This document shows, in pieces, positions 21,176 through 61,396 of a DNA stretch of 64,000 bases. The position numbers were made by a program, and so were the translations under genes. Below the pieces are notes generated by a model. The model was given only the letters and a program-made list of their open reading frames with translations. It did no database searches and had not been told where the DNA came from. The first letter of the stretch is position 1. Each line of letters starts with the position of its first letter. Origin of the DNA: Thozetella sp. PMI_491 (Eukaryota > Ascomycota > Sordariomycetes > Chaetosphaeriales > Chaetosphaeriaceae); the NCBI GenBank assembly GCA_021432635.1, contig MU270018.1, positions 7,579-71,578 on the forward strand. Reading direction: 5' to 3'.

Positions 21176-21675
21176 ATGAGAGCCACAATAGCCTTGTTCG
21201 AAATTGCCGTGGGCTTGTTCCTCTGGGATGGAGCGCTCGCGTCCTGTGGGTGGTACCTCAATGCGAACGACTGCATCTGCATGGTCTGTCTTCCCGTGTT
21301 CTTTATTGACTTTTTCGTCGAATATCGGGAGCTTTTGAGCTCCGGCTCTTGAGCCATGCTCCAGGCAGCTACCTAAACATTCATTCTAGGAAATTACTAA
21401 CACTCGGGCATGGATAGAATAGCGTAGACGGACATCTCATGGCCGACGAGACTTCCTTCTGCTGCCAGCAAATGGGCCTAAGAGCTTCCAACAATGTGAG
21501 TTATCCAACATCTTACTCTCCGACAGCTACCACACAGGACCACTAGGAGGGTGGGGGTGCGCGAGAGACTGGCTGACACGTATAGAAATGCGCTGTCGAT
21601 GAGGATACTCGGCAGATCTATAAAGATTGTTGCAAATGGCTCCAGGAGACGAGCGTGATCGGTCACTGCCGCTAG
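21176..21675 (+). CDS. small secreted cysteine-rich protein, three exons
   Basis: Exons 21176-21283, 21418-21495 and 21586-21675 join in phase 0 to give 91 residues. No single open frame shows this gene; it emerges from splice signals. The first 22 residues (MRATIALFEIAVGLFLWDGALA) form a hydrophobic signal peptide with an Ala-Leu-Ala cleavage context. The mature part has nine cysteines: one at the new N-terminus, a CIC, a CC in TSFCCQQMG, KCAVDED, a CC in YKDCCKW and a final HCR before the stop. Paired CC and CxC spacing is typical of fungal secreted effector-like or surface proteins. Intron 1 is a copy of introner family A; intron 2 (21496-21585) ends after a GGCTGAC branch at TATAG. Function unknown; secretion is inferred from the leader. 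It converges on the downstream minus-strand gene. Confidence 0.78.
21284..21417 (+). mobile_element. introner-like element family A, copy A1
   Basis: 134 nt forming intron 1 of the secreted cysteine-rich protein gene (phase 0). It begins GTCTGTCTTCCCGTG, carries TTTTTCGTCGAATATCGGG, a central hairpin (GGAGC 21328-21332 with GCTCC 21358-21362; inner GAGC 21337-21340 with GCTC 21345-21348), then CATTCTAGGAAATTACTAAC as the branch region and ends GGGCATGGATAG. Near-matching sequence occurs as introns at 36440-36573, 53181-53313 and 60867-61005. Confidence 0.9.
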
Positions 21676-22121
21676 GTGACCACCAGTCGCAAGATGAAGA
21701 GATGGATGGACCTTACTCCAGCCCACCGTGACGTCCTAGGGAGCGTGGATATGTGACACTTCAGAGACACCTAGAGGGGCCGAATTGCCAAGTGTAGTTC
21801 GGCTGCTATACGCAGTCGGGCAAACCACCGATGTATCTACGTTCAACCCCGGGGTATCTCGGCGAGACACAAGGGAAAGCAAAGCTAAAGGATGGGTGCG
21901 CAGATGAGAAGGACGAGAGCGAGCGAGAACTGCATCAAGAATGGAGATATGTATTTTCTCTTGTCGCCACAAGGTAACGAGTCTGTCTTACGGAGGGAAA
22001 CTCTGTCCCGCCCCATGTGACCGTTCGAGTTGCCTGGACCGGTGCCATTGCCAGGGGGGTGACTTGCTTGTGAGTCTAAGCATTGCTCTCATGCAAGGAC
22101 TGGCGCCCGACAATACATTGA
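21676..22121. other. convergent intergenic interval
   Basis: Shared 3' flank of the secreted protein gene and the mitochondrial membrane protein gene. No supported frame. Confidence 0.5.
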
Positions 22122-23086
22122 TTACTGGCTACTTCTGTCTCCGCTATCCAACTCATTTGGCTGTGTATCTACTGCACCACGAAAAACAGCCAAGTCTTTT
22201 GGCTGGTTGCCTAGAACAACTGTGTGGTGTCGTAAGTATTTCGGACGGTAATTAAAGGCCGCCCTGGAGCCAAAGGGTGGGAGGAGAACTCACGTCTATC
22301 GAACAAAAAGTACGTCGTCACCAATAATATGGGGAGCGCGACGATCACCGAGGTGAGTTTCCTCGAGGCTTGTTTATACTCGACGCTTGCTGCGGAAGCA
22401 GGAGAGGGCTCTGTCGGGGCAGGGCGGGGAGGTTGGGTCACTACGACCGGGTTGCGCTTCACCGCAAGCGAAGCGGCTGCAAGCTCGATGGGAGGCGCTG
22501 TCGCCGGCCTCAGTGGGTGTTGCACGGGCGTCGGAGTCGTCCTAGAGAGAGGGGAGACATAGCTGGCGGGCCTATTCACCCTGGCAGCAGGCTCGGCAAT
22601 TGGGGCTACCGCGGGTTTGTTGTCGGCCCCGGGAGTGCTCATCTTGCTTGTCGGGTGAGCAGTTGTCTTGGCTGCTGTCGTCGATACTTTCTTTGCGCTC
22701 GTGACACTCGCTTTCGCAGGCTTTGGGAGGGGTGCGCTGCCCTTGGTGGAAGCGCTCCGGGTGCTGAGCTTTGGGGTCGCAAGGGAAGTGGTCGAAGGGC
22801 TAGGGGAGGGAGCCACGGGCATTGCCCCGCTCGTCTTCTTCCTCGGCGACTTGGACGGAGGGGGGACGGTGCTTGTGGTGCTCAGGTTCTTCTTAGACAC
22901 GCCAGCCGGGTCCTCTTTGGAAGTGGCGGCCTTCTTCGCTCGGGGCTTCGCTGTTGTTGCGGCATACCGCAAACTTTGCTGTAAGCAGCAGCCCGCCTGC
23001 TGCTGATGTAGCTTATACGGCGAGGCCGCCGGTGTGCGTTTCCGCAGGATGGCAGCACGCCTGGCTACTAATCTGGTGGCGAGCAT
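22122..23086 (-). CDS. mitochondrial single-pass membrane protein, unknown function
   Basis: Exons 23086-22294 and 22219-22122 give 296 residues. The start is the ATG opening a basic, hydroxylated presequence (MLATRLVARRAAILRKRTP ... SLRYAATTAK) typical of mitochondrial import. A long Ala/Pro/Ser/Lys/Thr-rich disordered stretch follows, then residues RKLTSVIVALPILLVTTYFL form one membrane segment. Intron 22220-22293 splits the codon after FDR; removing it gives LVLGNQPKDLAVF and a C-terminal tail, which fits the pattern of small fungal mitochondrial proteins with a 'membrane helix then RLVLG' ending. Without splicing the frame runs on into an unlikely tail. The gene is convergent with the secreted protein gene. 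Inner-membrane location is inferred; no enzymatic motif is present. Confidence 0.65.
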
Positions 23087-24236
23087 TTTGGAGGGCGAAG
23101 GGAGGCCGGGCAAGGTTGAGACCGGAAACGATTTTTGCGCGTGATAGCTAGGTAGCTACCTCGATGGAGGGCGAGCCGGGAAGAGAGAGAGCCGGCCGGG
23201 CGCGCAATGCGCACACAAGCAACGCGACTCAAGTATAAACATGGTCTGACGGCCCCAGCTCCGTCAGGACGAGATATGCGTGCGCCAGCCCTTGCGACAA
23301 ATTGTCGGGGGTAATTCTAAGCCAGTCGAGCTGGACCGCGTTGCTCTCGCGTCGTGTCGTCCAATTTTTTTGGAGGGGTTTGTTGCCAGTTGGAGATTAA
23401 AACGTCATGCACTAAAACATCCGCAAGTGGGGTGACCAAGCTTCCCCGTCCAATAATACGGTTGGCAGCTCTCTCGCACCCCTAGCTTGCAGAGCTTGCC
23501 GGGAATCAAGCACCACAGCAGCTAGGCCACCCCTTCCACCTTCCAGCCCTTCTTCCAACTCCGTACCTAGATAAACCACGGGGTACCTTGGGTAGGTAGA
23601 GAGCTCTGACTCATCTGAGCGTGCGCAGCCCTTGGCGAACAACCTCATCTTCTACCCGGCTGTTGATCCCAAGTCGGCCGCGAGGTTTACTGGTTGGCGG
23701 CGGGGCTCGTATTGTGAGGATCGTCGTGTTCGGCCGCGTGCCGCGTCTATCGAATCAGGCAGAGAAGCACCAAGGTAGGGCCTAGCTCTCTTATCAGCCT
23801 GCTCCCACTGGGGAGAGGCTTGCGATCTTGAGGAGCTCCTGCCTTTGACGCTGCGCCGAAGGTATGTGCTGAGTAGAGAGAGGAGCGGGTGACAAACCGC
23901 CTTTCTGCCCCTAGTGCGACGGCCCACAGCGAAGATGTCATCGCGACCTATCTGCATGCAATTGCATAATCCCTAGTGCAACGTTCTGAATCGCGTAGCA
24001 GCGGGGGGAAGTGCCATCCATCCTGCTGGGAGCTTCCTGCATGCCCGTGATATCTCTATATTCTCCTCCCCGGCACCCTGTCAGCACGACCCTTCCCCAT
24101 CCCCGCTCCCAAGCTACCACGTAGCATGCGTTCTTGGCCTACCTTGCCTACCTTTACCTTGAGCACCTTGCCTCTTTGCCGGCCCTAGATCTGCCCCACT
24201 CCAGACTATCTTGTCTAGACGTCTGTACAAGCAGCC
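23087..24236. other. divergent intergenic region
   Basis: Between divergently transcribed genes, so it probably contains both promoters. Short frames only; no motif recognised. Confidence 0.5.
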
Positions 24237-25112
24237 ATGACGACCCGACACATCCTTCTCCTCGGGGGGCACGGCCAGGTTGCACAGCACCTTACCGCAT
24301 TTCTACTCCAGGCCTCGTTGAGTGTCACCAGCATCGTTCGAAACCCGGATCAGGTATCTGCCCTCGAGAAACTTGGCGAGAACCGGAGCGGGACGCTCGA
24401 GGTCCTGGTCCGCAGCCTCGAGGATGTGAAGAGTGAGGCGCAGGCTAAGGCTATCTTGGACGAGGTCAAGCCTGACTGCGTCGTCTGGAGCGCAGGCGCG
24501 GGAGGCAAAGGTGGCCCTGAGAGAGTAAGTACCTGCCTGCCTTGACCCATTTGACCTAGCCCGCCCGTCTCTACCATATTCGGTGCCCTGTGCGACAACG
24601 ACTGACAGGCCTCGCAGACCCTCGCCATCGACCGTGACGCAGCCGTGCACTTCATCCACGCGAGCGCTGCTTATGGCTCTATCACGCGGTTTCTAATGGT
24701 GTCCTACCTCGCCTCGCGCCTCCAACGCCCTGCTTGGTGGGATGACGCCTCGTGGAAGTCCGCATGCGAGTTGAACACCAAAATTCTCCCGACCTATTAC
24801 CAGGCCAAGATTGCTGCCGACGAAGCTCTCTATCGGGTATCCAAGCAGCGCCCGGAGTTCGTCGGCATCAACCTCCGCCCAGGGACGCTGACCACGGAAA
24901 ATGCAGGCAAAGTGGAGCTTGGTAAGACCAAGGGCTCAAGGGGAAACGTCAGCCGCGAATCTGTGGCCAAGATTGCCGCCTTGCTACTTCAGTCTGAGGG
25001 GATCGAAAACACTTGGCTAGACCTTCTCGATGGAGATGAGGAACCGGAAGCGGCCGTCGAGCGAGTTATTAGGGACCATGTTAATGCCGCAGAAGGCGAG
25101 CCCTTTTTCTAA
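24237..25112 (+). CDS. NAD(P)-binding protein, atypical short-chain dehydrogenase (YMR090W-like)
   Basis: Exons 24237-24524 and 24618-25112 give 260 residues. The N-terminus TTRHILLLGGHGQVAQHL is a Rossmann nucleotide-binding turn (GGHGQVA in place of the usual GxxGxxG). The body has the pattern of NAD(P)-binding atypical SDR proteins: DCVVWSAGAGGKGGPER, then TLAIDRDAAVHFIHAS, then the helix with YYQAKIAADEAL and GINLRPGTLTTENAGKVELG. The intron (24525-24617) begins GTAAGT; the acceptor at 24617 (CGCAG) is preferred over one nine bases upstream because the latter sits only two bases past the branch point; both are in frame. Substrate unknown; yeast relatives are uncharacterised. Confidence 0.8.
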
Positions 25113-25641
25113 CACCCGCAGCGTACATTATCACGCATGCTGAGTCCCGCGACAAGAGACATGATCTAATGTACCAGCCCTATCCGGATATACGTGATTC
25201 TGTAATAGGGAGTGTCTCCCGCGGGGAGTATCAAGGCATTTATATTTTCCGAATAGCGCTAGGCCAAGAAAAGAAAAGAAAAACCCTCCAAAGTAACAAA
25301 AGCTATGAAACAAGAGGCAAATTCCTAATCCCGGTCTCTCAAGAGGACAATTACGCGGTAGTAGACTCCACGCCCTCTTCTGCGAGTAAACACTGGAGAA
25401 TAACCGCGACAAGAGAGGGAGGGAGGGAGGGAGGGAGGGAACGGGATGGGGGGTGGAGGTGGAGGAGAGATGACTGTGCCTAATGGAATACCCGCATATA
25501 CCTCAGCCACTACCCTCGTAAACTTCCCTTGCTGGTGGCTCAAGGATGCACTCAGCTGTAACACCACTGATCTAAATCAAGCTGTTCTTCGCATTCGACA
25601 GTGTCTACCTTGGGATAGCTGGCTGCCCCTTCACATTAACT
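25113..25641. other. convergent intergenic interval with a simple repeat
   Basis: 3' flanks of the NAD(P)-binding and Clr5 genes. Holds the GGGA repeat listed separately, nothing coding. Confidence 0.5.
25415..25440. repeat. (GGGA)n microsatellite
   Basis: Six uninterrupted GGGA units, followed by a purine-rich G/A tract to about 25470. Confidence 0.9.
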
Positions 25642-26241
25642 CTATTTCGGGCAGGTTCGTTCGGGGTCTGGGGAGGGAGTTCGGTAGCCAATATCGCCGT
25701 AGAAGTCGGCATCGTAACCGGGCCTAGGAGAAGCGATAGCGGTGGCAACGTCTAGGCCCCTCCTCTTAACATAGTTGTAGATGCGTCCCCAGTCGACCTC
25801 CCGGCCTCGTATGGTGAAGACGGTCTCCTTTCCAGCCTCCTCCCTCTCTTTCCTTAGACGCAAAAGCTGCACGACCTCCGAGTACCGATAGTTTTTGTCG
25901 AGACCCCAGTGCCTGAGCCGTGTCTTGTACATCCTTTCTCTAAACAATCCCCTCGGGTGGTTAGATGATGTGTTTATGAGCCGAAAGGGACGCAGCTGCC
26001 TCGTGAGCACGTACGTGGCCTGAAATCCATGGGTTTGCCTCATGGTCTTTATAACCTCCCTCAGAGAAAGATTCTGGTCGAGATAGAGCTCCTGGATGGT
26101 AAGACGGTGGGACTCCCAGTCAGAGGAGCAGGCCCACCTTGGATGCCCGCGAGACGAGGTGACGTCGCACATTGTATTCGGCAAGTCGGGGAGGCTCGGG
26201 GGGAGGCGGAATTGCAGTAGCGAGAGATGCGAACAAGACAT
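25642..26241 (-). CDS. Clr5-domain protein
   Basis: Exons 26241-26015 and 25939-25642 give 174 residues. The Clr5 domain lies at about residues 40-95: WESHRLTIQELYLDQNLSL, then REVIKTMRQTHGFQAT, continuing over the splice into ERMYKTRLRHWGLDKNYR. The 75-nt intron (25940-26014; GTACGT donor, TTTAG acceptor) keeps the frame open, so an unspliced reading also exists, but only splicing joins the domain as ERMYK. After the domain come a basic helix and an Asp/Tyr/Pro-rich tail. Clr5 was named for a fission yeast factor in mating-locus silencing; most filamentous-fungal members are uncharacterised and often occur in accessory regions. Start could alternatively be the internal ATG at 26172. Confidence 0.8.
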   Translation of the reverse strand: MSCSHLSLLQFRLPPSLPDLPNTMCDVTSSRGHPRWACSSDWESHRLTIQELYLDQNLSLREVIKTMRQTHGFQATYVLTRQLRPFRLINTSSNHPRGLFRERMYKTRLRHWGLDKNYRYSEVVQLLRLRKEREEAGKETVFTIRGREVDWGRIYNYVKRRGLDVATAIASPRPGYDADFYGDIGYRTPSPDPERTCPK

Positions 26242-27971
26242 ATAGGTACTCTATGTACAAACTGGGCTGCTGGGGACAATGAACTACACAGTGGTCGTCG
26301 AGGCTTCGTCAGAGGAGTCAGATACGCACATGCGGATCTGTACTTGTGCGTGTGTATATATGCATGTGGCTGCCTGGTCTCGTTCAGCTTGACATCTTGC
26401 CTAGAGATCATGAACGCAACTCGAATGATATGCCCTTCCATCACTACACGCGGCCCGGAGCGTTCGCGAAAGGACCGTGCATTTCTCACAGGTTTGAATC
26501 TTCCCTTGCTATACTCTAGCTCATCGGACTGCTCCATCTCCTGCCAGACCCCACTCCTCATATCACTCCCTCAGCCGACCCAGATCATACAGTCGTGCAT
26601 GTATGAAGGCATCAAGAATCGCACGAAATGTTGTGATAGGCAAGGACGACGAGCTTGCTCGCCGGCTCTGATGCACCTCTACGGCGAAGCCACGGCGCAT
26701 ACCGCTTGCTATAGCTTGACTCAATAATCCTCGACCGACAAAGACTTTCGGCTTCTAGATACCTCAGCGCGCCCGGCCTGGAATAATCGGCAACGATCCG
26801 ACGACGCCCTTTAATATGATTACTGGTCGCTAGGTCGGGTCTCTAAAGTCTCCCTCTTCCCGGTACTTGGGGCACTGTAGCGGCTCAATTGGGTGCCGCT
26901 CCGTCTGGGAAAGTACCGTGCATCCTCCTGCTAGGGGTGGGGGAAAGGACCGCGCAGCCAAGTGCCATAACCACCAGCCCGACCTCATTGAAAGTACCCC
27001 ACATAGGGATCCGCTTGACGGTGCAACACCCGCGCCGGGGAGTGGAAGTTGCCGGGTCATCAACACCCCACCATTTCTGGATGCTCGTGGGAGCGAAGAT
27101 ACGATTGTACTGGCCGATGGCGCGCTAGTGAGAAGGCGTGTCATTACGCATCGTGGGGCAGATCGCATGCTCTCCTCCTCGCTGCTGCGAAGGGTCGCTG
27201 CTTGGCCCTGCCCTGCAGTAGCTGAGGGCCTGCAGCCTCCTCACATAGATGGCCACGAAGATGCGGCAGCACCTGGCCCAGGCCACCTGCTATCCTCCTA
27301 GCTAGGAGGGAATATCAACGACCGTCGATGCATGCCTGACTGACCCTGGGATACCATAGTGCTCGTCAAAGCGGCCGGGGTGGATCGGCCGCACAGGACA
27401 AGCCAGTAAGCAATAGCCATCGGACAAGATGGTTGGGCGACGGCGTGTTGGTCACCAGGAGGCAGCTGCTCGACGGAGAACCGGAAGCATAGAGAATGCC
27501 GGTGATCTAGTGGCTTAGGCGTCTGATTGGGTAGTCTTGCAATACCCTCCGAGCTCGCTGCGTTGTAGGGCCAGCACATGGGCGCGTGCTTACATGTGTA
27601 TGTGTACATATCAGACAGGAATAGGTAGGTCTTTAGAAAGGGGCAGGACGAACAGGAGGAAACTGGGTTTACGTGTGTCACAAACGGGACACTGTAAACT
27701 GCCTGGATTAGACACTACCACTCTCGTTCTGCACATTAAGCAGGTAACCCCCCGCCCCCCCGACCTGCGCCGACGGCTGTTTCTTCACTCGGCCCAGGCC
27801 TTGCCAAGCAAGATCATTTATCTACGTACTTGGTGGCAGGCAAGGGCGTACGGCCAACTTTGGACTGCACATACTAGAGCCTCCTCGTAACCGTGCAGCC
27901 AGGCTGGACTTGAACGGACCTCAACGCGAGCCCGGGTCAAGTAAGCCCCAAGGCAAATCGCAGCGCACTGG
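26242..27971. other. intergenic, no gene seen
   Basis: 1.7 kb upstream of the Clr5 gene and downstream of the Atg28-like gene. Open frames at 26227-26727 and 26867-27301 lack recognisable motifs and splice context. Confidence 0.45.
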
Positions 27972-29951: not shown

Positions 29952-30799
29952 GTTGTCGCTGGCTAGATAAACCACATGCCGGCTCGGAGGTGATGCGGCT
30001 CGGTCGTATGTTTGAGGGTTCCAACGTCCGGGGTTGCTCGCTATTCATGCCGTGTAGGCCGTATGGAAATTGGGAAAGGAGCTGGGGGAGGTATTGCAGT
30101 GAGCTGGGGGAAGTATTGCAGGAAGCTGAAGTCGGTATTCAGCGTGGGTCAGCAGCTCGCTCGTGGAGGTTCGGTGCCTGCCACCAGAAGTGGTCAGCAG
30201 AGCTGCTGAGCTGCTGAGCTGCTGAGCTTGTCAAGTACTCCGTACAGCACCTAGTAAGTGGGTACTTACGTATCGCACGGACTGCGTCGAGCAAGGTACC
30301 TTATCAAAGTTACCTCCGTATAGCGTAAGGTAAGGTTGGGTACCAGCGATACCCTAGGTAAGAGGTAAAGTACTGTACAGTACATGATCGCCCTGTATTT
30401 TCTACAGAGTAATTGGAGGTACGGAATATTGATAGTGCTTATGCCCCACCCAGCTGTGAAACAAGACCAATGAATGGGTGGCTTTCGATTATGAGCATCG
30501 TGAGCTCATTAGTGGCACACGACCCTTGTCAGTCAACACAGCACCGAGCTGTGCACATCTTCGCTAAGGTGTGCCCTTGCCTGCTACTGGGGTCGCCGGG
30601 TTTGCACGCATGTGACCAAGGTCTTGGAGAATGCAGTGGCGCAAATCAATCCATGCCAGCTAAATCTATCTATCGGAGAGGGGGGCCAGCACCTCCTCGC
30701 GGGAGAGGGGGATTAGCCAAGGCAGTTGACTGCAATTCGCCTAGCCTCAGAGTGTCACCGAGGTCAAGACGCACAAGCGAACCTTGGAGGCCAGCTACT
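29952..30799. other. intergenic between ATG28-like and pyruvate kinase genes
   Basis: Contains the AGCTGCTG tandem repeat at 30201-30229 and several GGTACC-like palindromic strings near 30295-30390. No coding frame supported. Confidence 0.5.
30201..30229. repeat. AGCTGCTG tandem repeat
   Basis: Three and a half copies of an 8-bp unit AGCTGCTG in the promoter side of the Atg28-like gene. Confidence 0.85.
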
Positions 30800-35455: not shown

Positions 35456-37925
35456 TTACAAGTTATTCACAGGGAACTTGGTCCTCAGCAACTCGCCATA
35501 TCGAAGGATGAGGAAAGCGACAGGAATCATAGCAACCGCAATGAATGCTAGTAGGCTGTTTCCCCATCCCATGCCTAGAGTCTGGAACATTTGAAGGCCG
35601 CAAAGCTACCAAGGCATAAGCTTTCTGCACCTTTTTTAATCAAGCTAGGGAGGGAGAAGGGGCAACAACGCACAGGAAGTACAGCGCCAGCGATGGACCT
35701 GACGACAGTGTTAGCAGCCAGCGCAGAGGCCGCGTAGATGGTAAACGTGTCGACAAGAGCGAGGCTTAGTGCCACTATCGTATCCCGAGTCAGTAATTGC
35801 CTTCCGCGTGGCTGAGACCTGCCTGAAGACCCCGAATTGGGCACCAATCGGTTGGGGCAATCCACTCGTGGGGCAACGACGAAGCTGAAGGCAAATTTCA
35901 TAGACCCCGAAATACGTACTAAAGATGATGATGTTGCCAACACCAATAATTGCCGTGCCGATGAGCTGGAGACGCGGTTAGCGTGAAGAAGAAAAAATAA
36001 CACAAGCTGCGCGAGGGAGGAGGGCACTGCTGACAGGAGCAATCCAGTGTGTCTGGTACTGTGCGGTCCAGCCGTAGATGAACAGGCCGACTGGGAGCAG
36101 GACAGCCCCGACAGGTATGGGCCTCAAGCGGTATTCGGGCTTCATTCCCTGGCCGTCCTTAGCAGCCATCCGTTTGATGCTGCGGTCGCTGGTGATGCTG
36201 AAGTAAAACAGGCCAAACACTGAAGGGGGGGTTGGTTAGCCGCAGTACTCCCGAGGCGTGTCGCGCAAGGGAGGAAGACTTGCTTGATCCTACGCCCAGC
36301 CCGAGGTATACCAGGCCGACGGTGGATGTACTAAACCCGTAAAACTGCGCACGGGGTCAGGGTCTGTCCAGCTCTAGCATGACTAGGAGGCCGCTACTTA
36401 CTTGTTCGAAAAGAATGGTGATGCTCGTGAACATTAGGTCTACCCATGCCTGCGTATTAGTCATTCTCTAGAATGGATGTTTATGTAGTTACCCAGCGCA
36501 TATTTTAAGAGCAGGAGCTCAAATGCACCCGATAGTCGACGAAAATAGCAGCAAGGAACTCGGGAAGACGAACAGAGATATCCATATACAATGGCCATAT
36601 AAACGGCGAATATGAGGCAGATCGGGCTAAAAATTAATAGTCTAAGAGGGCGTACAATGCTTCTCTTGAAGTAGTCGGCTGGAGAGAGGCCAACGTCAAG
36701 CTTAGACCGGAGTAGGTCGTTGCCTGTCTCCTTCCGGAGCCTCTCAGTCTTTCTCGCGAGAAGAACTTGCAGGACAGTTAGGCCATGAAGTGCAATAGGA
36801 AGTTGACTAGGACATGAAGAAGTTTGCGCCAAACCGAAAGGGGGGCGTGAACACGACTTACCGGGAGCATACGTCTCTGCACCAAAGGCAAGCATGGCCA
36901 GGGACAGTGTGCCGGCGAGGATAACGAGGAGCCAAAATACCCAACGCCATCCCTTCGCATCAGCGAGGAAACCCCCAGCAACAGGGCCAATGATAGGTCC
37001 TGTTCTTCCCTGTCAGCTACTAGGCCAAGACGAGAGGATAGGCGGCAACGGGGCCGCACCTAGTAATGGCCCGATACTGAAGGCCGCCATGGCCGCGCCA
37101 CGCTTCTCCTGTGTTATTATGTCGCTGATAGTCCCACCACCGTTTGTCAGTGGTGCTGAGCCAAAGACGCCGGAAAAAAAGCGGAACACGATGAGAGCAT
37201 TCAGGCTCGGAGCCAAAGCACAACCAACTATGAAACTTTAGCACCCGAGTCTAACAGACAAAGCGGGGTGAGAGGCGCAGGAAGGGCGCGGGAGACGGAC
37301 TCAGAAACGCGACGAAGCAGATATTGCAGATGTGGTAAATCCACAGCCTTCCGTATATCTCGGAAAGAGGGGCCATGAGGAGAGGCCCGAGGGCGAAGCC
37401 AAGGACGTAGACGCTGACGACAAACGCGGCCAGCTCGGTGCTGGAGGATCGAAAATCTTGCATCAATTGGGGGACACCGGGGGCAAATACCGAGGAGCCA
37501 AGGGGGGTGATGAAGGTGAGGGTGCTGATCAGGATGCAGTTGACCACCTTCCTCCAAGCAGGCCAGTTGTAGGGATTGGCAGGGTCATCCGGCCCATCCC
37601 AGAAGACAGCGTTGGCATCTTCCTCAGGCAGTGCGGCCGCGGGATCCTCGTCGTTGTTGGGACCGTTGCCTCCTTCCTTTTCGACGTCCCGCGACCCTGT
37701 CAAGCTTGGGCGGTGGGCTAACGAACTCCGTCTCTGCTCCGCTATGGAGCGGCGCCGCTTTTCCTCCCCTCTGTCATCCAATACATACCCAGTGCTTGAG
37801 GGTATATCAGCATCATGGCCTTCGTCAAATGCCTGCACGATGGACTGTTGCCTCTCTAGACCGGCTCCATCAACCTGAGTGGCGCCTTCTAACGCCACAG
37901 TCGAGGGGCTGCTGTGGCCCGCCAT
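35456..37925 (-). CDS. DHA1-type MFS transporter, ten exons
   Basis: Exons 37925-37301, 37227-37060, 36999-36862, 36765-36574, 36439-36402, 36344-36284, 36219-36035, 35965-35920, 35774-35674 and 35605-35456 give 567 residues. The N-terminal 110 residues are cytosolic and acidic. Transport signatures follow: [13 protein letters not shown] before the first helix, [14 protein letters not shown] (MFS motif A), [61 protein letters not shown], and [22 protein letters not shown] with a final WGNSLLAF. This is the proton-antiporter DHA1 pattern of polyamine and multidrug exporters; the substrate cannot be read from sequence. Intron 4 is introner A2, intron 8 is introner B1, and intron 6 (36220-36283) has a GC donor (GCAAGT). 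Plasma-membrane location inferred. Confidence 0.9.
35775..35919 (-). mobile_element. introner-like element family B, copy B1
   Basis: 145 nt forming intron 8 of the DHA1 transporter (phase 1). Sense-strand start GTACGTATTTCGGGGTC, middle CTTCAGCTTCGTCGTTG and CCCCACGAGTGG, a strong hairpin (ATTGG 35836-35840 with CCAAT 35844-35848 on the plus strand, extended by CCCCG and GGGG arms), and end GCAATTACTGACTCGGG then ATAG. Matches introns 52313-52464 and 60436-60572. Confidence 0.85.
36440..36573 (-). mobile_element. introner-like element family A, copy A2
   Basis: 134 nt forming intron 4 of the DHA1 transporter (phase 1). Sense-strand start GTTCGTCTTCCCGAGTTCC, then CTATTTTCGTCGACTATCGG, a central GAGC-TCCT-GCTC stem-loop bounded by GCAT and ATGC, CATCCATTCTAGAGAATGAC at the branch region and the end GGCATGGGTAG. 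Removing it restores the conserved VYGYLYLMFT, so the limits are well fixed. Confidence 0.92.
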
Positions 37926-50504: not shown

Positions 50505-50523
50505 CGGCCATGCCACCAATCTA

Positions 50524-51576: not shown

Positions 51577-52149
51577 GGCTCTTTGCCGGCTAACTGGTAG
51601 GATGCTTTTGGGGGAGTGAGGCGATTGTCGTTGTTTACAATTTGTCGGTTCGGTGATCAACGGCGCAAACCGAATAACAACGACAATGGATCCTATCTTG
51701 CTTTTCGCTCTCCCAAACTTCTTGTTACGGGCTTGAACGAGAAGACATCGGAGATACGCGCGCAATAAAAAAAAATACCGAGGTTTGCCTCAGCCTGAGC
51801 CTCGGAATCCACCCGGAGGAGCCACTTAGCGCAGGGAAGACCGCGATACTGGGAGCCATGCTGATAAGGAACGCCTGCCTGGGTCCCACTGTGGGCTGGA
51901 CCCATGAAGCCGGGCTGCCGGGCCAGCCGCTGGAGAGGCTCCATGATCCGCTATCATTTTCACATGTGCTGATGCGATATCTGTTTCTGTGGTAGCGGTC
52001 ATGCTACCCGAGGTACCTGACTTTCGGCCCGGTTGGGGATCCAAAGACATACAGCAGAGCAGCCAGAGAAGCGAGAGTCGGCTCGAAACTGCAGCCAGCA
52101 TTCTCAACAGGAGCCTTGCCTAGCAAACCGTCGCCGTGTTGTCTCCCGC
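51577..52149. other. intergenic between peroxidase and RraA-like genes
   Basis: Promoter of the peroxidase and 3' flank of the RraA-like gene. No frame supported. Confidence 0.5.
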
Positions 52150-53352
52150 TCACGAACGATAGGTCTTGCTTGCCTCGCTAAAACTCATCCCTTCTTGGAT
52201 TGCAACGGCCATCTGCGAATCGGCCGCAACTTGCCTAGCCATCAGCGGTAGAACCGCCTCTGCCAAATGTTTCGGAAGCACCACTACCCCGTTAATGTCG
52301 CCGATGATATAGCTGCCCACATCCAAGGTCAGCAATTGCCCTAGGCTGGGTCGACACATACTTCAAGGCCTCGAACTGGGCACCACTCGGCTGCGATTGT
52401 CCATCTGCGGTTCAAGTCATGAAGTCGAAAGGAAGGTAGGAAATTTTGACTCCGGAATACGTACTCCCCTGGGTTGATAGTCAGGTCTTGCTCGTCGTTC
52501 TGCAGCTCGACCGGGACGTTGGTGGCGACCACCTTGACGAGCTGGGCTGGTGGGGCAGTTCCCACGTCTCGAGCGAAGACCTGTACATTGTCAGAGTGCA
52601 TGGCAGCTGACGAGAGAGCCCAGGCAGCTCGCGTCATTTGCACACATGCAGGACCGGGGGCTCTCTCACTGGAAAGCCCAGGTCTCTCTGCTCCTGCAGA
52701 TCCCGAAAGCGCCCGTCAATTACAGAGCCGACCGCCTTGCTCGCCTTGGCCCTTGCCGACATTAAGCTGCCATAGACAGCATTCGGCGTCCTCGGAGGGC
52801 AAGAGACGAACACGACTGCTCCAGCGGGAATGGAATCAATCTGCCCGACCGCCGCCGATTCCACGGGTTAGTGGGCGTGCATAGAGGCAGCGGGGGACAG
52901 GACTGAGGACAGAACTCACGTAGTGTGTGGGGTGGCTGGGACTGGGATCGTCCAAAGGCACATACTTGACCGTGTAGGCCGGCCCCACGATCTTGGTATC
53001 GCCCTCTTGGCGCTTCGGCGACCACATGGTGAGGCCGGAGAGGAAGCCACCGTTGGGAAACTGGAGCTTGCAAAGGGCGTCGGAGACATCGCACCTGAGG
53101 GCGCGTGGCATTAGCGCGCCTCCTGACTTCTCTGATGGCTTTCTGTTGCCTGGTGTTCGACCAATTCCTTACGTGGTGAACTGGCCATGTCCAAGCGTTA
53201 GCTTCCTAGAATGGATGGCCATGTAGAGGGACCCGTGGCATGTCTCGAGAGGAGGAACTCGAGTTCTCTCGAGATTCGACGAAAATGGCAATGCAGAACA
53301 CGGGAAGACGGACCTTCTGGAGCGCCTCGATGATGGGGTCTTGGACTGCCAT
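52150..53352 (-). CDS. RraA-like / 4-hydroxy-4-methyl-2-oxoglutarate aldolase family protein, six exons
   Basis: Exons 53352-53314, 53180-53173, 53094-52920, 52840-52670, 52580-52465 and 52312-52150 give 223 residues, the normal family length. Conserved features: TTCDVSDALCKLQFPNGGFL at the N-terminus, AYTVKYVPLDD, IPAGAVVFVSCPP, NAVYGSLMSARAKASKAVGS, VIDGRFRDLQEQRDLGFPVF (the Gly-x-x-Arg-Asp substrate/metal motif), VGTAPPAQLVKVV, and NPGDYIIGDINGVVVLP (metal-binding Asp). Members cleave 4-carboxy-4-hydroxy-2-oxoadipate or act as oxaloacetate decarboxylases; others have no known activity, so substrate is uncertain. Exon 2 is only 8 nt. Intron 1 is introner A3 and intron 5 is introner B2, so this small gene holds one copy of each family. 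A GTACGT donor two bases inside the Asp codon gives the correct NPGDY. Confidence 0.9.
52313..52464 (-). mobile_element. introner-like element family B, copy B2
   Basis: 152 nt forming intron 5 of the RraA-like gene (phase 2). Sense start GTACGTATTCCGGAGTCAAA, then CCTTTCGACTTCATGAC, a hairpin centred on TGG-TGC-CCA with flanking CGA and TCG, and end GGCAATTGCTGACC then GTGGGCAG. The GTGGTGCCCAGTTCGAGG core closely matches the B1 core. Confidence 0.88.
53181..53313 (-). mobile_element. introner-like element family A, copy A3
   Basis: 133 nt forming intron 1 of the RraA-like gene (phase 0). Sense start GTCCGTCTTCCCGTGTTC, then GCCATTTTCGTCGAATCTCG, a perfect 9-bp hairpin (53243-53251 with 53266-53274), CCATTCTAGGAAGCTAACGC at the branch region and end GGACATGGCCAG. 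Only 8 nt of exon separate it from the next intron. Confidence 0.92.
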
Positions 53353-56300
53353 GATGGTGAGAGGCGACTAGCTTGGGCGGCAGAGTTCTGCCGGCGTTTG
53401 CAAAGCTTTGAGCCAGCAAATGGGTAAAGCTCCAGGTCGCTAAGGTGAGGTGGTGTTCTGCGCCAGAAGAAAGATTACGGCCTTCGCGGCGGCGGGAGTG
53501 CTCTGGGCGATAGCATGAGCCCGGGCTGATTGATGGTACGCAAGGAAGGGATCTTGGACGTCCTGAGCTGGTGGTGTACCACGAGCGGCAAGGTGCGGGC
53601 GCAAAGTTTCCGCGCGCGGGGGAGGGTCGGCCACGGCATGTGCTCGCAGATCGGCCCTCGGCCACCCGCTGCCCGGAGGCTCTGGTGCGGAGTATGTATG
53701 TTGCTTGTAGCTCCGAGGACTGGGTCCAGCCGTTGAGAAAGCATCACTAGGCAGCACAAAATGCCAATTTACGGTCTGGGAAGAGGGCGAATTTACCAAA
53801 GCTTGCATTTATCGATGAAAGGTACTGCCTAATAGGTAGGTACGTCAGCATGCACCGCGTTCTCTTGCCAGCGGACGCCGCGAGGAACGAAGCACCAGCC
53901 AAGTACTGACCCTGGGTTCGCAGTTTAAGTCCCGGGTTTGGACAAATCAGGAGCACCACCGGGTGGCATGCAACACGACGATCTACATTTATATGCTTGT
54001 GCGGGGTTAGTCCGGCCCAGTGCCGCCGGAACGTACAATCGGCTCCCTTGTACAGTGCAAGGGGTTTTTTTCTCCCCCAACGCAAAAGTTGCCACACGGC
54101 GGGACAGAAAGAGAGGGGGTGGTCAGCGCTGATTGACACCCGTCCACCTCATCACCAGCACAGCATGCGACAGGCTATCCGCAGCTGCGGGATCAAGGGA
54201 AAGAATTGCGTTTAGGGGTCACGAGATGTGCAAGCCAAAACCTCACCCAGCGCGTGTCCAAGTAAACGTCCCGGATTATCCTACGGAGTACGGCAACCTA
54301 CCTCGACCCGCAGTTCTGCCGGCAGACTGCAGCTGCCCGGACTGGCCCAACCCGGCAGCGAAAGGGCTATTTTAAGACATGCGCCTCTGCGGTGGCTGGG
54401 CTTCGACGGTCCTCTAGCTCGTCTCATCCCACCACCCCGGCTGCGGCGGTGGCTGTTCCCCCGTGCTCTGCGCCCGGGACAAGCACCAGCCACGACGCTC
54501 GCGCAGGTTGCGGGCGCCAAAGTGCCCGTCCACTCTTTCTGTGCGGTGTTGGGTGCAGTAATCACCTGTATGCCGAGACGAGGCAGACAGCAATGCTCTC
54601 AAGCCATCGATTGGCCGACAGCACCCGTGGGCACGGAAGTGGCGGATCCTTTCTCAGCGCCTCCCCGGGCCTCTAAGTCTTGGGTTGTCTTCCGGACGGC
54701 CTTTTCTGCTCAAATTTTCTGGAAGACGCTAGCCCGGTGGCCATTGGAGCGGCACGGACCTGGGCGAATTGGGACATGGCCGCGAGATGATAATGGTGCG
54801 TGATAGCCCAAACGCTTCTCATCGTCGGCGATCATTAGAGGAGACTCTGCGTTTTGAGGAGGGGGCAGGGGGGCCGGAAGCGCTACTAGACAGGGCGAAT
54901 TAAAGACCTGGAAAATGGATTCCAGAAAATGACATCCAGTCCGCGAAAAGGCAAGACGCCCCAACAAGCGCTTACGAAGTACCTGAGAAATACTACCTAT
55001 TAGAGTGAGGCAGCAGATTCCTCCCTTACTCTCTCACCTCCCCCCACATGCAGCATAACCGCCTGGGCCACAGCGCCAGCCATCCAGCGCAGAGCCGGAC
55101 AAGAGGTTCGCATTGGACGAAACCGAACTAGCAAAGGAGCAGTTGCAGAACTTACAGTTGAGGGTAGCCGTAGTCTCAGCCGTAGCAGTAGTATGAGGGG
55201 AAGAGAGGAGAAAAAGAGTAAGCAAGAAAAGCAATTAATAGGTAAACGAGACGAAGCAATCTGGAATGTCGGTATTACTGCAGCGGCCCATTCTGGCGGT
55301 AACTTGCTTCACGTGGAAATGGAATCCCCACCCACCACGACCATGGCCTCTTGGATGACGCCTCCCTGCCTGTCTGAGTTAGACGACAAGGGGGCATGGG
55401 CCAACATCATACATGGCCCCCCGTCGCTGCCGGGCGACAGAGTGGCTGGCAGGCCTAGGCCGACCAGGGCAGCGGGGTTTCTTGGTTTGCGCAAGGAAAA
55501 AAAAAAATTCACATATTCGTTCGCTTGGTACTTTTGTACAGTACATACATAGGCAGGGGAGGTGACGGGCGGAGGTATGTAATTATAGCACTGTAGGACT
55601 CCGTACGTAGGGGCATTGGACCCCGACTAAGTGCCGCTCTAGAGACACATGTGCAGGCGACAGCACAGGCTGCTTCAGGGGTTGTCACCTTTCGCCTCTG
55701 CAGCCCCGACGCCAAACGGGCGCTTGGTGTGCAATTTCCATGATAGGGATTCCATAAGGTCTGTGGAATTCTGGGGCTATCTGGTGGGTGGTGGACGAGC
55801 CAATACCCGCGATAGTTAGTCTAGGTCGGTAGGGACTTAAGTTCGTACATAGCTATTTAGGGAGTTGGTTACAGGTAGTAGGTACTTGGTAGCTTGCCCA
55901 ATTCATATTTGCCCCCAGACCAGGTACCTGAGGTTGAACCCCCCCCCCCCCCCCCCCCGGGGTTCGGCGCTGCCTGATCATCTGTTACTAGAATCCACTA
56001 CCTGCCTGAGGGGGGAGGAGCGAGGGGGGTGGTCGTCTCTAGCGCGCCGGCTGACGTGGGGACGATTACCCTGCGCATTGAACCGGCTACTTCGCCCATT
56101 TTCGTGCTTGGCAAGCCCACACTGCCTTCCAGCTACGTAGTAGGTAGCCGTCCCAGCCAGCTCACCCTTGGCCGACCGCCCAGCCCTATGAACAATACGA
56201 GGCGCCAATCTTCCAGCCTCAAGTTCTCCTACCTTAACACTACTTTCCTCCCGCCACCCGCCAACACACGGCACACGTTGCGCTCTCTGTACCATTTTTT

Positions 56301-56624
56301 CCCCTTTTTGCGACCGCAGCCTGAGGGGGGGACTCTTCTCCTTGAGATTGACCGGGTCGAAACGACTGTCCGCGTGCCTTCTCCCCTCGACCCGTCAGCC
56401 GTCATCTTGAGCGATCCGAGGAGACGGTCTCAGCCAGGCATCCACCCCTCCCGATCGACAACGAGAACAAGCAGAGCAGGAAGCACAGGGGAAAACAAAC
56501 CTGACGCCTGGCCCTAGTCGCGGACCTGACAAGTGTATAACCCGCCAAGGAGCGCAATGCAGGCGCCTCGTCTGCCGTAGCTGCTTTCTCGTCGCGTCGC
56601 GCCGAACAAAGAAACATTCACAGA
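53353..56624. other. long gene-poor divergent region
   Basis: 3.3 kb with no supported gene. Contains a run of twenty C residues at 55939-55958. Frames at 53440-53808, 54228-54803, 55193-55552 and 56029-56517 are overlapping and motif-free; the last may be 5' leader of the downstream membrane protein gene. Confidence 0.45.
55939..55958. repeat. C20 homopolymer
   Basis: Twenty consecutive C residues followed by GGGG; a likely length-variable tract. Confidence 0.9.
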
Positions 56625-58184
56625 ATGCCGGTGCCTGTTGGATTGCCCATTCTCGTCCCCATCCAAACCCCCCGGGCCTTTGGTTCAAGGACGCCATTGT
56701 GGCCCCGAGATGATCACAAAACCTCCAACGCAAACACCATCGTATGTGATGCACAATGCCGCTGACCATAACCCGTTCTTGCTGACGTTCCACAGGTCAT
56801 CGCCGCCGTCGTAGTCGGCATCCTGGTCCTTCTCGCCGCCATCGTTGTCGTGCGCACGATCCGAGCCCGCCACCCGAATCCCAAGTACATTCCAACCCCT
56901 TTTCTAAAACGAATATGGTCCGGCTGGAATGTGCCACGGTATCGAACGGGCTACCAGGCCGCCGGCGACGATGACGACGTCTCCACGAGACGCACTAGTC
57001 GCCTGCGCGCCGGCTCGGAAAGCGCGGAGGGCGCGCTAGCGGACGCGGGCAGAGGGTCGAGAGGGAACGGCGGTGTAGCGGGCGTCGATCGCAACACGTC
57101 GGTGCGCAGCGTCATGACGCTACCTGCGTATCGATCCAAGGCGGCCGAGACAGAGCAGGTACTAGGTCGCGAAGGCGAGCGTGATGGCATCGACGTGGTC
57201 GTGGAAATGCCGACTGCCGAGGATGAAGAGGCGTTGCGTGATGAAGAAATGGAAGCCTTGTACCAGATCCGGCTGACGCGGCGCCGGCAGATTGCGGAGC
57301 GAGAAGAGCTTCGCCAGGCCAGGCGTGGGGCTCGGCAGCGGCATGACGTTGTCGCACTGGACGAGTTGAGGCGGCAGGCGCGATTGGCAAGCGAGTCGAA
57401 TGTGGACGAGGTGGAGGGGCTACGGCGTGAGCACGAACGCATCAAGGAAACGCGGCAGCGGGCCGTGAGCAGCGTCTCGTACGGAGATCTCGGCGTCGCG
57501 AGAGCCGACGGCACGCGCCTTCGGGCCAATAGCACCGAGAGCGAGCGCGTGGGACTTCTCAGCGACGCCGCCAGCATCGCTCAGAGCCTGAGATCTCCGA
57601 GCAGGACAGGCAGCAGCAGCCTACTCACCCGGCGCGACCGACGTGCCAGCTCGGTGATGAGCATCGACACGGCGCGCAGCAACGACCGGCCAGACTCGCC
57701 CGGCCTCATGACGGGGGAGAGTACCTACAGCTTGCACAGCGCCGGGCGGGCCAGGTCCAGGGCCAACTCGGGGGCCAATTCAGGAGCCAACACGCCGCGC
57801 CTGTCGAGCTCCAACACCCGTGCCGGATCGAGCCCCGAGATCATTGATGCCGAAGAGGGCGACCTCGGAGAGTCCGACATGCCTCCACCGGGCTACGACG
57901 ATGTGAGCCTGGATGATATCACGCCGGTCCACTCGAGGAGCTCTCTATCCGGGCGAAATAGCCCGTACAACGAACCCCCGCCCGACTACCCCGGCCCATC
58001 GCAGGCAAGGAACAACAGGCTTTCGGCACATATGGAGGACCTTGCAGCCGAGGCAGCGACCGACGACGATGGCCAGAGCACCAGGTCGAAATCGAGCCTG
58101 CCGCAGCTGCCGAGCCTCAGACTGCACCAATTACCGCAAATCGTGATTGAGCCATCTAGTGCTCAGCCCCGGGACACCCACTAG
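56625..58184 (+). CDS. single-pass membrane protein with long cytosolic tail, unknown function
   Basis: Exons 56625-56741 and 56796-58184 give 501 residues. A short N-terminal region (MPVPVGLPILVPIQTPRAFG ... NANTI) precedes the membrane segment VIAAVVVGILVLLAAIVVV, whose codons only become in-frame with an ATG after the 54-nt intron (GTATGT donor, CACAG acceptor) is removed. A conserved juxtamembrane stretch follows: PNPKYIPTPFLKRIWSGWNV then P. The tail has a Glu/Arg coiled coil (EEALRDEEMEALYQIRLTRR and EELRQARRGARQRHD, about residues 165-250), then Ser/Arg-rich disorder with PPPGYDDVSLDDITP and EPPPDYPGP, resembling PY-type ligase-binding motifs. Such proteins are widespread but uncharacterised in ascomycetes. 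A trafficking role through the PY motifs is speculation. Confidence 0.72.
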
Positions 58185-59601
58185 CCCCGAGGGGAAGGGA
58201 ATGCATTAGTGAGAACAACAGCGCGCGCACAGCATATAGGAGAAGAACTTTCACCCCCTCCTCCTATGGTTGAGCCTATCCATTTATACACACATTCTGG
58301 GGCGGGGGCCCCATGGAATGGAACGGTTTGAAGTGAAGCATCTTGACGACGATCAATGAACGGTTGGAATGGAGGAACAGAAGCGTGGCTTTTGGAGTAC
58401 GGTCTTTCGGTCACTCAACGCTAAATTATAAGGGCATGCTTCCGAACGCCTCTTTTGTTTTGGTTTATCCAGGGCCCAGGTGGGCAGGCAAGCAGGCAGG
58501 GAGGAGTCCTCCGTACATGTGTAAACATTAATGCCTTCCTAGTCTCCCAGACCTCGGTTGTGCCCTACGAACTGAACAATACCTCGTACTCGGCATTTTC
58601 AAAAAGATCAAGTTTATTTAGAAATGTCCGACCAAGCCAGTGCCTTTGCATACCTTCCAGGTTTCTTAATCCTTAATCTTCCCGATAATTTTTCAGAAGA
58701 AGGGACTTAGGGTCGGTGGTCTTACTTGGTCCCAGTAGAGACATGCCTAGAGGTAATCAAAGGTGGCTTGCAGCTGCAAGCGATGACCAGATGCTAACCC
58801 AGTGTGTTCTATATCTCGGAACCTGCTGGGAGTACACCCAACGCCGGATGCTATTGGATATAAAACCGTAACGGGTGCGCTGAGGTAAACATGAACTGGG
58901 GTGGAAGACGTCAAGCACCGCAAAGCCCCGCCTCCGCCGCTGCCCCTGCCCTTCTTTTGAGATACATTCTTACTCCTTACTTGTCTGGATCCAGAAAGCC
59001 TCATCGCCTGTCGTGATGGATTGCTAGCACTCTGGGCGGTATTCTCGTCAGTTGGCACGACTCTAAGAAGGGGGGGCGCCAGAGGGTCATAAGCTAGACC
59101 CCGTTAGCCTGCTACGTAGTAGTTGTAAGTTCTGGGTATAGCTTAGCAACGAAAGTGGTGCCGAGGTGCCGAATCGGGAACCAGCCGAGACCGTCGAGGC
59201 TAGCGGCGAATGCGGCATCGATTGGCTCTGTGAGGGGATGGGATGGGGGTCGAAAGGCCAGAGCCCATTGCTCCGTCTCACAGGACCAGGTGCTTTCCAC
59301 TCTTCCTTCCTCTCCGGCCCAAACAGATCAACAAGTCGTCCACGAGCGGCATCATCTTTCAGAAACTCGCACGGGACCCCTCGTCGCGAGATCCTATCCG
59401 GAGGCGCTCGTGGATCCGTCTTGTCTCGGCCTCGGTTCCGCAGGGCTCATGTGCATAGCTTCTACTTCTCCCCGTCTCTGCGGCTGAATACAACCGAATA
59501 CAATTGACGGGAGGTCTCGTCTAGGAACGAGTCGGGGCAGGGCCGCGATTGAAACCAGAGCACTCGACGCCCCTCGAATCTAGCACTTACTGGACCTCCC
59601 C
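58185..59601. other. intergenic, no gene seen
   Basis: 1.4 kb; frames at 59155-59507 in overlapping registers show no motif. The end is the promoter of the MFS gene. Confidence 0.5.
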
Positions 59602-61396
59602 ATGGAAAAGGAAACTCTCCGTACCGGCTCCGGCTCGGACCAGCAGGCAGATTCCTTGGTCGGCAATGAGTATGTCGGTGGTGGCCCTCCTCCTGTGCCA
59701 TTGACGGCAGTGCCCGAGCCCGAGGCCAGAGCTTCAAGCCAGCGTTCGCCTGGCCCTACCCCGGACGGGGGCTTGGACGCTTGGCTTCAGGTGCTGGGAT
59801 CGTGGGTTATCTTGGTGCACACTTGGGGCTTGATCGTAAGTACTTCTAGTCTTTCTTTACTCCCCTTTCTACGACCTTCTGAGAGCAACTGTGGGCCTGT
59901 CAGAGCTTTTGACATGAGTTCTGCTCCCGAGGCATGGCGTCGTCCTCTCGAGACACTCCCTAAATGTTGATAAACCGCTGAGGATCCCTTAGAACTGCTT
60001 TGGCGTCTTCCAGTCTTTCTACGAGACCGATCTTCTTAGGTTCAGCTCGTCGTCTGAGATCTCATGGATCGGCTCCGTGCAAGGGGCCCTCCTGCTGCTC
60101 GTCGGAGTGGTGTCGGGACCCCTCTACGATGCCGGCTACTTTCGGGAGCTCCTGTGGGTCGGCATGTTTCTCATTGTGTTCGGCCAGTTCATGACGTCCT
60201 TATGCGTAGCATATTGGCAAGTGCTGCTCGCCCAGGGCTTTTGCATGGGTGTCGGCATGGGCCTTACGTTTCTCCCGTCTGCCGCCATCCTCAGCCAATA
60301 CTTTGACAAGAAACGAGCCCTGGTCCTGGGGATCTCCAGCACAGGATCGCCTCTGGCTGGTATACTCTTTCCAATACTCTTCAGCCGACTGGAGCCCGTC
60401 GTTGGCTTTGGCTGGACCACGCGAGTGATTGCCTTGTACGTATCCCGGAGTCAAAGTGCTCCTTTCAGCTTCATAGTTGGCCCACGAATGAACAATCGGA
60501 GTCAGTCGAGGTCCAACTCGAGGTCTCCGATCAACTATGCCCCAGGCGATTACTGACTCTGGGCATGGGTAGCATCCTGCTGGGCATTTCCGTGATACCT
60601 CTAGTCTTCATGCACACCCGGCTTCCTGCGTCCGGGAAAATGCGGTCCCTCTTCGACCGGTCGGCCTTGGGCGATGCCCCGTATGTCCTCTTCGTTGGCG
60701 GATCTTTTATGGGTTTCTTAACGCTCTACGTGCCATTCTTCTACATCAAAGTGTTTACCGACGCCCACGAGCTCTCTGGGGCAGCCTTCAGTCCGTACCT
60801 CGTCACGCTGCTCAACGTCGGCAGTGTGTTTGGCCGCATCGTGCCCAATGCGTTGGCAGATCACTGGTCTGTCTTCCCGTGTCCTTTATTGCCATTTTCG
60901 TTGAATACCGGGGGCAGTTGAGATCCCACTCTTGAAACATGCTCCGGGTAGCCATTTAAACATCTACTATAGGAAATTGCTAACAGATAGGCACGGGAAA
61001 AAAAGGGGCAATCTAAATATGATTACCCTGTGCACCTTCGCCAGCGGCATTCTGGCGTTTGGCTGGTTGGGCACCCACAGCCTCGGGGGCCTAGTCGTGT
61101 TCGCTCTGCTATATGGCGGGTTTTCTGGGGGTGTCGTGTCGCTAATGCCCAGTGTCATGGTGACTTTGGCACCGGACATGGGTCGTGTGGGTGTCAGAAT
61201 GGGAATGTCGTTCCTGGTGTCAGGCGTGGCGATCCTGGTCGGCACGCCTATCGCCGGGGCCATCTTGGGCGACTTCACCGAATCGGAGTGGCTTGGGACA
61301 ATAGGGTATGGGGCGGCAGGCCTCTTTGTAGCGTCGATACTGTTTGCTGCCTCGAGATTGATGCTTTTCAAGTCGAGAGGTGGTCTAAGAGCCTAG
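59602..61396 (+). CDS. monocarboxylate-transporter-like MFS protein
   Basis: Exons 59602-59835, 59993-60435, 60573-60866 and 61006-61396 give 453 residues. A Pro/Glu-rich N-terminus is followed by the MCT signature GGLDAWLQVLGSWVILVHTW and NCFGVFQSFYETDLL, then SEISWIGSVQGALLLLVGVV, GFCMGVGMGLTFLPSAAILS, QYFDKKRALVLGISSTGSPL, SPYLVTLLNVGSVFGRIVPN, and NLNMITLCTFASGILAFGWL. It probably moves a monocarboxylate or related small acid across the plasma membrane; fungal members include riboflavin and nicotinate importers, so the substrate is open. Intron 2 is introner B3 and intron 3 is introner A4. For intron 3, the acceptor at 61005 gives ADHWGNLNMI, as in relatives; an upstream AG at 60990 would insert HGKKR in frame. 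All twelve membrane segments appear intact. Confidence 0.88.
60436..60572 (+). mobile_element. introner-like element family B, copy B3
   Basis: 137 nt forming intron 2 of the MCT-like gene (phase 2). Start GTACGTATCCCGGAGTCAAA, then CCTTTCAGCTTCATAGTTGG and CCCACGAATG, a two-part hairpin (ATCGGAG 60495-60501 with CTCCGAT 60525-60531; TCGAG 60506-60510 with CTCGA 60517-60521), end GATTACTGACTCTGGGCATG then GGTAG. The 3' end is also close to that of family A. Confidence 0.88.
60867..61005 (+). mobile_element. introner-like element family A, copy A4
   Basis: 139 nt forming intron 3 of the MCT-like gene (phase 2). Start GTCTGTCTTCCCGTGTCC, then GCCATTTTCGTTGAATACCG, hairpin with GAG and CTC inner arms and CCGG outer arms, ATCTACTATAGGAAATTGC followed by the branch TAAC, and element end GCACGG aligned with GCATGG of the other copies, completed by an A-run and AAG. 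An internal AG at 60990 is a second possible acceptor. Confidence 0.9.

Follow-up and report, generated by a model that had tools for sequence, protein, structure and literature searches.

How new spliceosomal introns are born is a long-standing open question, and one stretch of the genome of Thozetella sp. PMI_491 raises it in concrete form: why should seven introns in four dissimilar genes belong to just two sequence families? The stretch (contig C4, positions 7579 to 71578; here called the window) is 64,000 nucleotides (nt) long, in a genome assembly of 72.3 Mb and 157 contigs. A sequence-only reading of it had proposed that these introns multiply as mobile units. That idea is supported by the analysis described here, which found many more copies in unrelated genes and, in the clearest cases, paralogs without introns at the same codons. 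The seven window introns are almost certainly copies of two families of introner-like elements (ILEs), A and B. For the explanation as a whole, namely, that they are non-autonomous mobile spliceosomal introns, in two families, for which we infer an RNA route, we estimate a probability of roughly 0.85.

The two families in the window and across the genome

All seven segments were extracted, oriented, and aligned (Table 1). Each stands where the sequence-only reading had placed it, runs from GT to AG on the gene strand, and matches its family end to end inside those borders. The hosts were also as first described, i.e., two MFS transporters, an RraA-like protein, and a small cysteine-rich secreted protein, and each B copy shares its gene with an A copy. 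The claim that the introners are longer than the local norm held as well: they measure 133 to 152 nt, compared to 57 to 96 nt for ten ordinary introns of the MFS transporter 1 and RraA-like genes. A search of the window with a profile of each family (E values up to 10) returned exactly four A and three B copies, with E values of 9.5e-36 to 3.2e-42, for profiles built from the very copies that they recovered. Identity to the family consensus is 82 to 93% for A and 81 to 86% for B. In the A copy at 60867..61005, the acceptor region has decayed to a run of A followed by the final G. Moreover, the spliced products of MFS transporter 1 (567 amino acids [aa]) and the RraA-like gene (223 aa) match public Thozetella sp. 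PMI_491 proteins from end to end at 100% identity, which indirectly confirms, as annotated, the splice sites of the A copies at 36440 and 53181 and of the B copies at 35775 and 52313.

A whole-genome search, a check of the kind suggested along with the sequence-only reading, yielded 94 recognized A copies and additional B copies. BLAST with one A copy gave at least 41 matches (40 of 68 candidates were scored), and three patterns from the 5' end, middle, and 3' end of A matched the genome 55, 63, and 54 times, with 0 matches for each reversed-pattern control. The union of patterns and BLAST held 95 entries, or 94 elements after one short copy on C81 was merged. Pairwise capture-recapture estimates the A copies at 94 to 102, and the Chao bound is 113. 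The patterns missed the window copy at 36440, and so older copies exist beyond the count of 94. The earlier expectation of very many copies genome-wide therefore stands in part: there are many further copies, but recognizable A copies number only on the order of 100, and the window is a local cluster. The supposition that its density is typical of the genome fails, since 0.08 to 0.10 A copies are expected per 64 kb compared to the four seen; the same patterns catch three of these four, for which the Poisson P value is about 1e-4, uncorrected for the window having been chosen. A copies do cluster in the genome, with 4 pairs within 2 kb versus 0.25 expected and 18 within 64 kb versus 7.8, under a uniform model without contig ends.

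Family B is rarer than A and looks older. The three window copies, used as queries, gave 4, 13, and 1 matches, themselves included, while a B profile (window plus fetched loci) found 17, among them 13 that are near full length, with 3 of the 13 in the window; one further B-like copy lies on C26. In total, 91 profile hits were reduced to 85 kept copies (72 A and 13 B) when 2 A and 4 B hits were dropped as shorter, and the A places examined are 72 of the 94 or more. Family A has a median length of 134 nt (128 to 148 nt), a mean pairwise identity of 77%, and a best pair at 96%. Family B, at 145 nt (121 to 152 nt), has a mean identity of 69% and a best pair at 78%, values that make it look like an older wave. 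Two waves are thus visible, with B older and decayed and A younger, containing pairs up to 96% alike.

Among the 85 kept copies, 83 start with GT, one starts with GC, and one does not match; the acceptor falls exactly at the model end in 75. Most copies have a strong branch site, TACTAAC in A and TACTGAC in B (CTAAC or CTGAC near the 3' end), and the conserved element includes both splice sites. The B consensus contains a perfect 10-nt near-terminal inverted repeat, TCCAGAGTCA ... TGACTCTGGA (duplex P = 2e-4), that overlaps the branch site. No terminal inverted repeat was found in the A consensus, where near-terminal pairing is weak (duplex P = 0.075) and the longest exact match is 5 nt. Homology between A and B was sought and could not be shown (P = 0.064). 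Also, no nested (stwintron) structure was noticed when borders were read by eye, with no dedicated test.

Several loci show copies in unusual arrangements. At L021 (C37:98518-98787), a pair of A copies that differ in subtype lies head to tail with the bases CT alone between the two, and at L061 (C69:294612-295150), 57 nt separate a B copy from an A copy. On C81 (110382-110446), the 5' and 3' ends of A stand about 65 nt apart, probably marking an internally deleted copy, and a short intron with B-like ends in a sugar transporter gene on C13 (L023, about 3831-3869) is probably an internally deleted B copy. Four same-gene pairs of A copies were compared, and the partner was the nearest neighbor in L015 and L023 only; the notion that such pairs are local copies was not borne out for the other two. 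Further families were sought by comparing the window and 20 fetched neighborhoods all against all, which, with A set aside, gave within-locus tandem repeats alone (among them L022 1-374, period 180 bases, and L024 9037-9681, period about 126 bases); the comparison did not list even the B copies, and families as old as B would escape it.

Placement in genes, gain, and choice of site

The copies sit mainly in genes and in the sense orientation, and the exons that they separate join with the reading frame unchanged. When the copy is removed, the frame is open for 150 nt or more on each side in 57/85 copies in sense versus 14/85 in antisense, and the codon score is higher in sense than in antisense in 77/85. 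When the element is left in place, some frame is open in only 10/85. A de novo gene finder that was blind to the families called 25 of 31 copies exactly as introns; this program over-predicts introns, and its ordinary-intron lengths were set aside. Further evidence comes from Pfam. The 20 fetched neighborhoods contain 24 A copies, 20 of them with an exact model, and 19 were tested (L024_4721 was left out) by using 140-aa pieces centered on the splice junction as queries. A domain extends across the junction in 15 of the 19, in 13 cases above the curated cutoff. Host domains include those of sugar transporters, OPT and K+ transporters, amino acid permease, AMP-binding enzyme, P450, GH11, GH43, tannase, and luciferase-like monooxygenase.

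This range of hosts, from GH11, GH43, and tannase to P450, permease, K+ and OPT transporters, and AMP-binding enzyme, bears on the idea that the introns are alike because their genes are related, or that they are unspliced repeats. Several hosts are indeed transporters, and three sugar transporters, on C60, C62, and C1, share one A site within 1 nt. These three copies, however, are 77 to 84% alike in a family whose mean is 77%, and none is a tree neighbor of another; we therefore take them as separate arrivals. As for an artefact, the spliced products that equal public proteins, from two genes, cover four of the seven window copies. Neither shared ancestry nor artefact is, in our judgment, at all credible.

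As judged from paralogs within the Thozetella genome, introners are shown, in the tested cases, to have been gained after gene duplications. The RraA-like gene has a 72% identical paralog on C110 that possesses 3/3 of the ordinary introns at exact positions and 0/2 of the introners. Also, an ordinary intron is kept 8 nt from the RraA A copy, and thus the event that brought this copy did not remove its neighbor. The C13 sugar transporter gene (L023) has two A copies, and a 69% identical paralog on C19 reads through both sites. The A site of a GH11 gene on C18 (L022) is read through by four of six paralogs (C2, C9, C28, and C38), as checked at the DNA level for the C2 paralog only. For MFS transporter 1, paralogs such as those on C88, C23, C3, C34, C14, C12, and C76 (30 to 42% identical) have one stretch of the expected length over both introner sites.

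Nevertheless, not every introner site was virgin, as some lie at or a few nucleotides from ordinary introns of paralogs. For instance, an ordinary intron of the GH11 paralog on C3 lies 5 nt from the L022 A site, and its exact position is occupied, in the C26 paralog, by a B-like intron (43.8 bits). The B copy of MFS transporter 1 interrupts codon 484.33, and ordinary introns stand at 484.0, 1 nt away, in the paralogs on C6, C32, and C18 and not in those on C9 and C84; these five were read because matches break near the B site. Among the sugar transporters, the A copies on C60 and C62 occupy one codon and phase, with the C1 copy 1 nt away, and a gene on C64 has an unrelated 116-nt intron at the identical codon and phase. 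A decayed A copy was considered for the C64 intron and discarded, as it gave no profile match. Paralogs on C13, C34, C37, C46, C83, and C86 have introns roughly 9 to 17 nt upstream of this site, those on C4, C19, C45, C50, and C78 have none there, and one on C18 has an intron further downstream; these readings, made partly by eye, leave out C8. These genes were met by chance or picked for alignment breaks, and no rate can be derived from them. A study of ILEs in other fungi likewise places elements at distances of 1, 8, and 3 nt from sites where other species have ordinary introns (PMC4457414).

Such coincidences would be expected if resident ordinary introns had been overwritten by introners, by conversion or by loss plus gain, with few positions being new. 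The B-like intron on C26, the B copy of MFS transporter 1, and the C64 intron at the very site of the C60 and C62 copies all point this way. Yet the sites of both RraA introners, both L023 A copies, and the L022 A copy (in 4/6 GH11 paralogs) are intronless in paralogs, and offsets of 1, 5, and 8 nt are unlike simple overwriting. We consider replacement quite improbable.

Exon borders are not random. Base A stands at +1 in 41/72 A copies (local background, 0.219; P = 1e-10), and base C stands at -1 in just 5/72 (P = 7e-6). Positions -4 to +2 are 62% A/T, compared to 46% at random places in the same flanks (0/2000). For family B, the preferred base is A at -1 (10/13; P = 4e-5), and the A/T excess around the site is not significant (147/2000). 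Among the ten ordinary introns, A occupies +1 in a single case (Fisher P = 0.006). No target-site duplication was detected in the 85 copies (longest shared flank word, 3.12 versus 3.06 shuffled; P = 0.28). These non-random borders and the recurrence of separate copies at or near one codon in paralogs are possibly new. A tentative idea, which we would not yet bet on, is that the introns choose their targets: a family-specific one-base exon preference, an A/T-rich spot, no target duplication, the same codon hit again in related genes, and an ordinary intron 8 nt away left untouched. If so, the intron RNA or the spliceosome would direct insertion into DNA or a transcript not yet spliced, and parallel gain rather than inheritance would account for many of the intron positions that gene families share. 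Border preference and repeated codon use provide a directly testable handle on target choice, and both bear on the reading of shared intron positions as shared ancestry.

Routes by which the introns could spread

In the mechanism that we propose, each copy has its own donor, branch site, and acceptor, and in the sense orientation, exact splicing out leaves the protein unharmed. The excised intron RNA could enter, by reverse splicing at short A/T-rich spots, either a transcript or transcribed DNA, and reverse transcription would then carry the intron into the gene. Preferred spots would allow separate copies to recur at the same codon in paralogs. Mainly sense, genic, and seamless insertion without target duplication favors such an RNA intermediate over a DNA transposon. 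We give this route an even chance, down from a shade better than even because an antisense control weakened part of the sense evidence.

Several observations weigh against this explanation. At 45 nt, the open-frame test barely discriminates (80/85 in sense versus 67/85 in antisense), and the 80/85 count was dropped as main evidence on account of that control. Eight of the 85 copies score no better in sense than in antisense, and the other strand scores higher in 2/31 gene models (L025 and L028), so that some copies may be intergenic or antisense. The border bias could stem from selection for splicing rather than from target choice. Ordinary introns are retained 8 nt (RraA) and 38 and 46 nt (MFS transporter 1) from introners, which disfavors the classical model of recombination between the gene and a cDNA copied from completely spliced mRNA; insertion into an unspliced transcript or DNA fits better. 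Nor do the copies fold better than ten ordinary introns (mean z of -0.75 for A, -0.73 for B, and -0.69 for ordinary introns). Pairing between the two ends of a given A copy is no better than that between ends exchanged across copies (P = 0.34), and the near-terminal pairing of A is neither copy-matched nor compensated, with a consensus duplex that is not significant. RNA structure as a driver was rejected: a near-terminal stem and an internal hairpin in A are paired in 89% of cells, which does not exceed the value for shuffles, and the proposed A stems have no covariation beyond shuffles.

Alternatively, the copies might be tiny non-autonomous DNA transposons, moved by a transposase and bearing splice sites at their ends, whose antisense or intergenic insertions were removed or went unnoticed. 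Such signatures are reported for most introner families elsewhere (PMC9860276). Biased exon borders would be expected from splice-site co-option, B has its 10-nt near-terminal inverted repeat, and a few copies are not clearly in sense. However, the 85 copies lack target-site duplications, the conserved element itself contains both splice sites, with none co-opted from a target duplication, sense orientation dominates, and A has no terminal inverted repeat beyond a 5-nt longest exact match. Transposition as DNA is unlikely on this evidence, though it deserves to be taken seriously.

Another route is the capture of intact intron RNA or cDNA at double-strand breaks in transcribed DNA, with copies kept when in sense. 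Seamless insertion beside a retained ordinary intron needs no mRNA template of the gene under this model, which has been proposed for fungal stwintrons (PMC12403724). Break repair predicts random, unbiased sites, as the stwintron authors report there, whereas the borders here are biased and sites recur in paralogs; it should yield antisense copies too. We think it an unlikely source of these introns.

Known introners, host genes, and minor observations

Fungal ILEs are a known kind of element, and the occurrence in Thozetella fits it. ILEs of Fulvia fulva, Dothistroma, and Passalora are described (PMC4457414) as repeated near-identical introns in unrelated genes, gained recently, sometimes two per gene, and longer than ordinary introns, with two of them flanking a retained conserved intron; the Thozetella introners are alike in these respects, including the ordinary intron kept beside an introner. 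Thozetella belongs to a different fungal class (Sordariomycetes, Chaetosphaeriales; the sequence-only reading had cited Dothideomycete ILEs), and the two systems are likened by description, not by sequence. Stable folding has been reported for ILEs, whereas the Thozetella introners fold no more strongly than ordinary introns.

The ascomycete introner families of Gozashti et al. 2022 (PMC9860276) share with ours the lack of target duplication, the lack of a terminal inverted repeat (as in A), and a genic bias. Sister stwintrons and cropped sister introns of Hypoxylaceae and Xylariaceae also insert seamlessly without target duplication (PMC8469720, PMC12403724). The 10-nt near-terminal inverted repeat of B resembles the NTIRE-10 of stwintrons (PMC12403724), but its sequence differs and it overlaps the branch site. 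Unlike stwintrons, the Thozetella introners appear simple, not nested; moreover, those two sources report no bias in bordering exons, while the Thozetella bias is strong and differs by family. Algal DNA-transposon introners (Huff type, as covered in PMC12403724 and PMC9860276) are likewise short non-autonomous elements that act as introns, but the Thozetella copies show neither a target duplication nor a co-opted splice site. How ascomycete introners spread is under dispute, since transposon marks are lacking (PMC9860276, PMC12403724). No report of introners in Thozetella was found in the literature searched, from which supplements, preprints, and most subscription papers fell outside (the supplement of PMC9860276 may list them). 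The Thozetella genome provides about 100 fairly young copies alongside an older, decayed family, and its paralogs with and without an introner serve as internal controls.

Table 1. Introners of the window and their host genes (window positions)
Feature	Position	Strand	Remarks
Family A introner, 134 nt	21284..21417	+	Cysteine-rich secreted protein gene; 92.5% to A consensus; splice site inferred
Family A introner, 134 nt, phase 1	36440..36573	-	MFS transporter 1; spliced product 100% identical to public protein P0001
Family A introner, 133 nt, phase 0	53181..53313	-	RraA-like gene; 8 nt upstream of retained ordinary intron
Family A introner, 139 nt, phase 2	60867..61005	+	MFS transporter 2
Family B introner, 145 nt, phase 1	35775..35919	-	MFS transporter 1; codon 484.33
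Family B introner, 152 nt, phase 2	52313..52464	-	RraA-like gene; missing from 72% paralog
Family B introner, 137 nt, phase 2	60436..60572	+	MFS transporter 2
Host, small cysteine-rich secreted protein	21176..21680	+	Ab initio model; 3' end provisional
Host, MFS transporter 1	35456..37925	-	Public name bicyclomycin resistance protein; nine introns, 567 aa
Host, RraA-like protein	52150..53352	-	Five introns (two introners and three ordinary), 223 aa
Host, MFS transporter 2, 3' part	60038..61396	+	Pfam MFS_1 in spliced product

Apart from its two introners, MFS transporter 1 contains a GC-AG intron with a GCAAGT donor (window positions 36220-36283).

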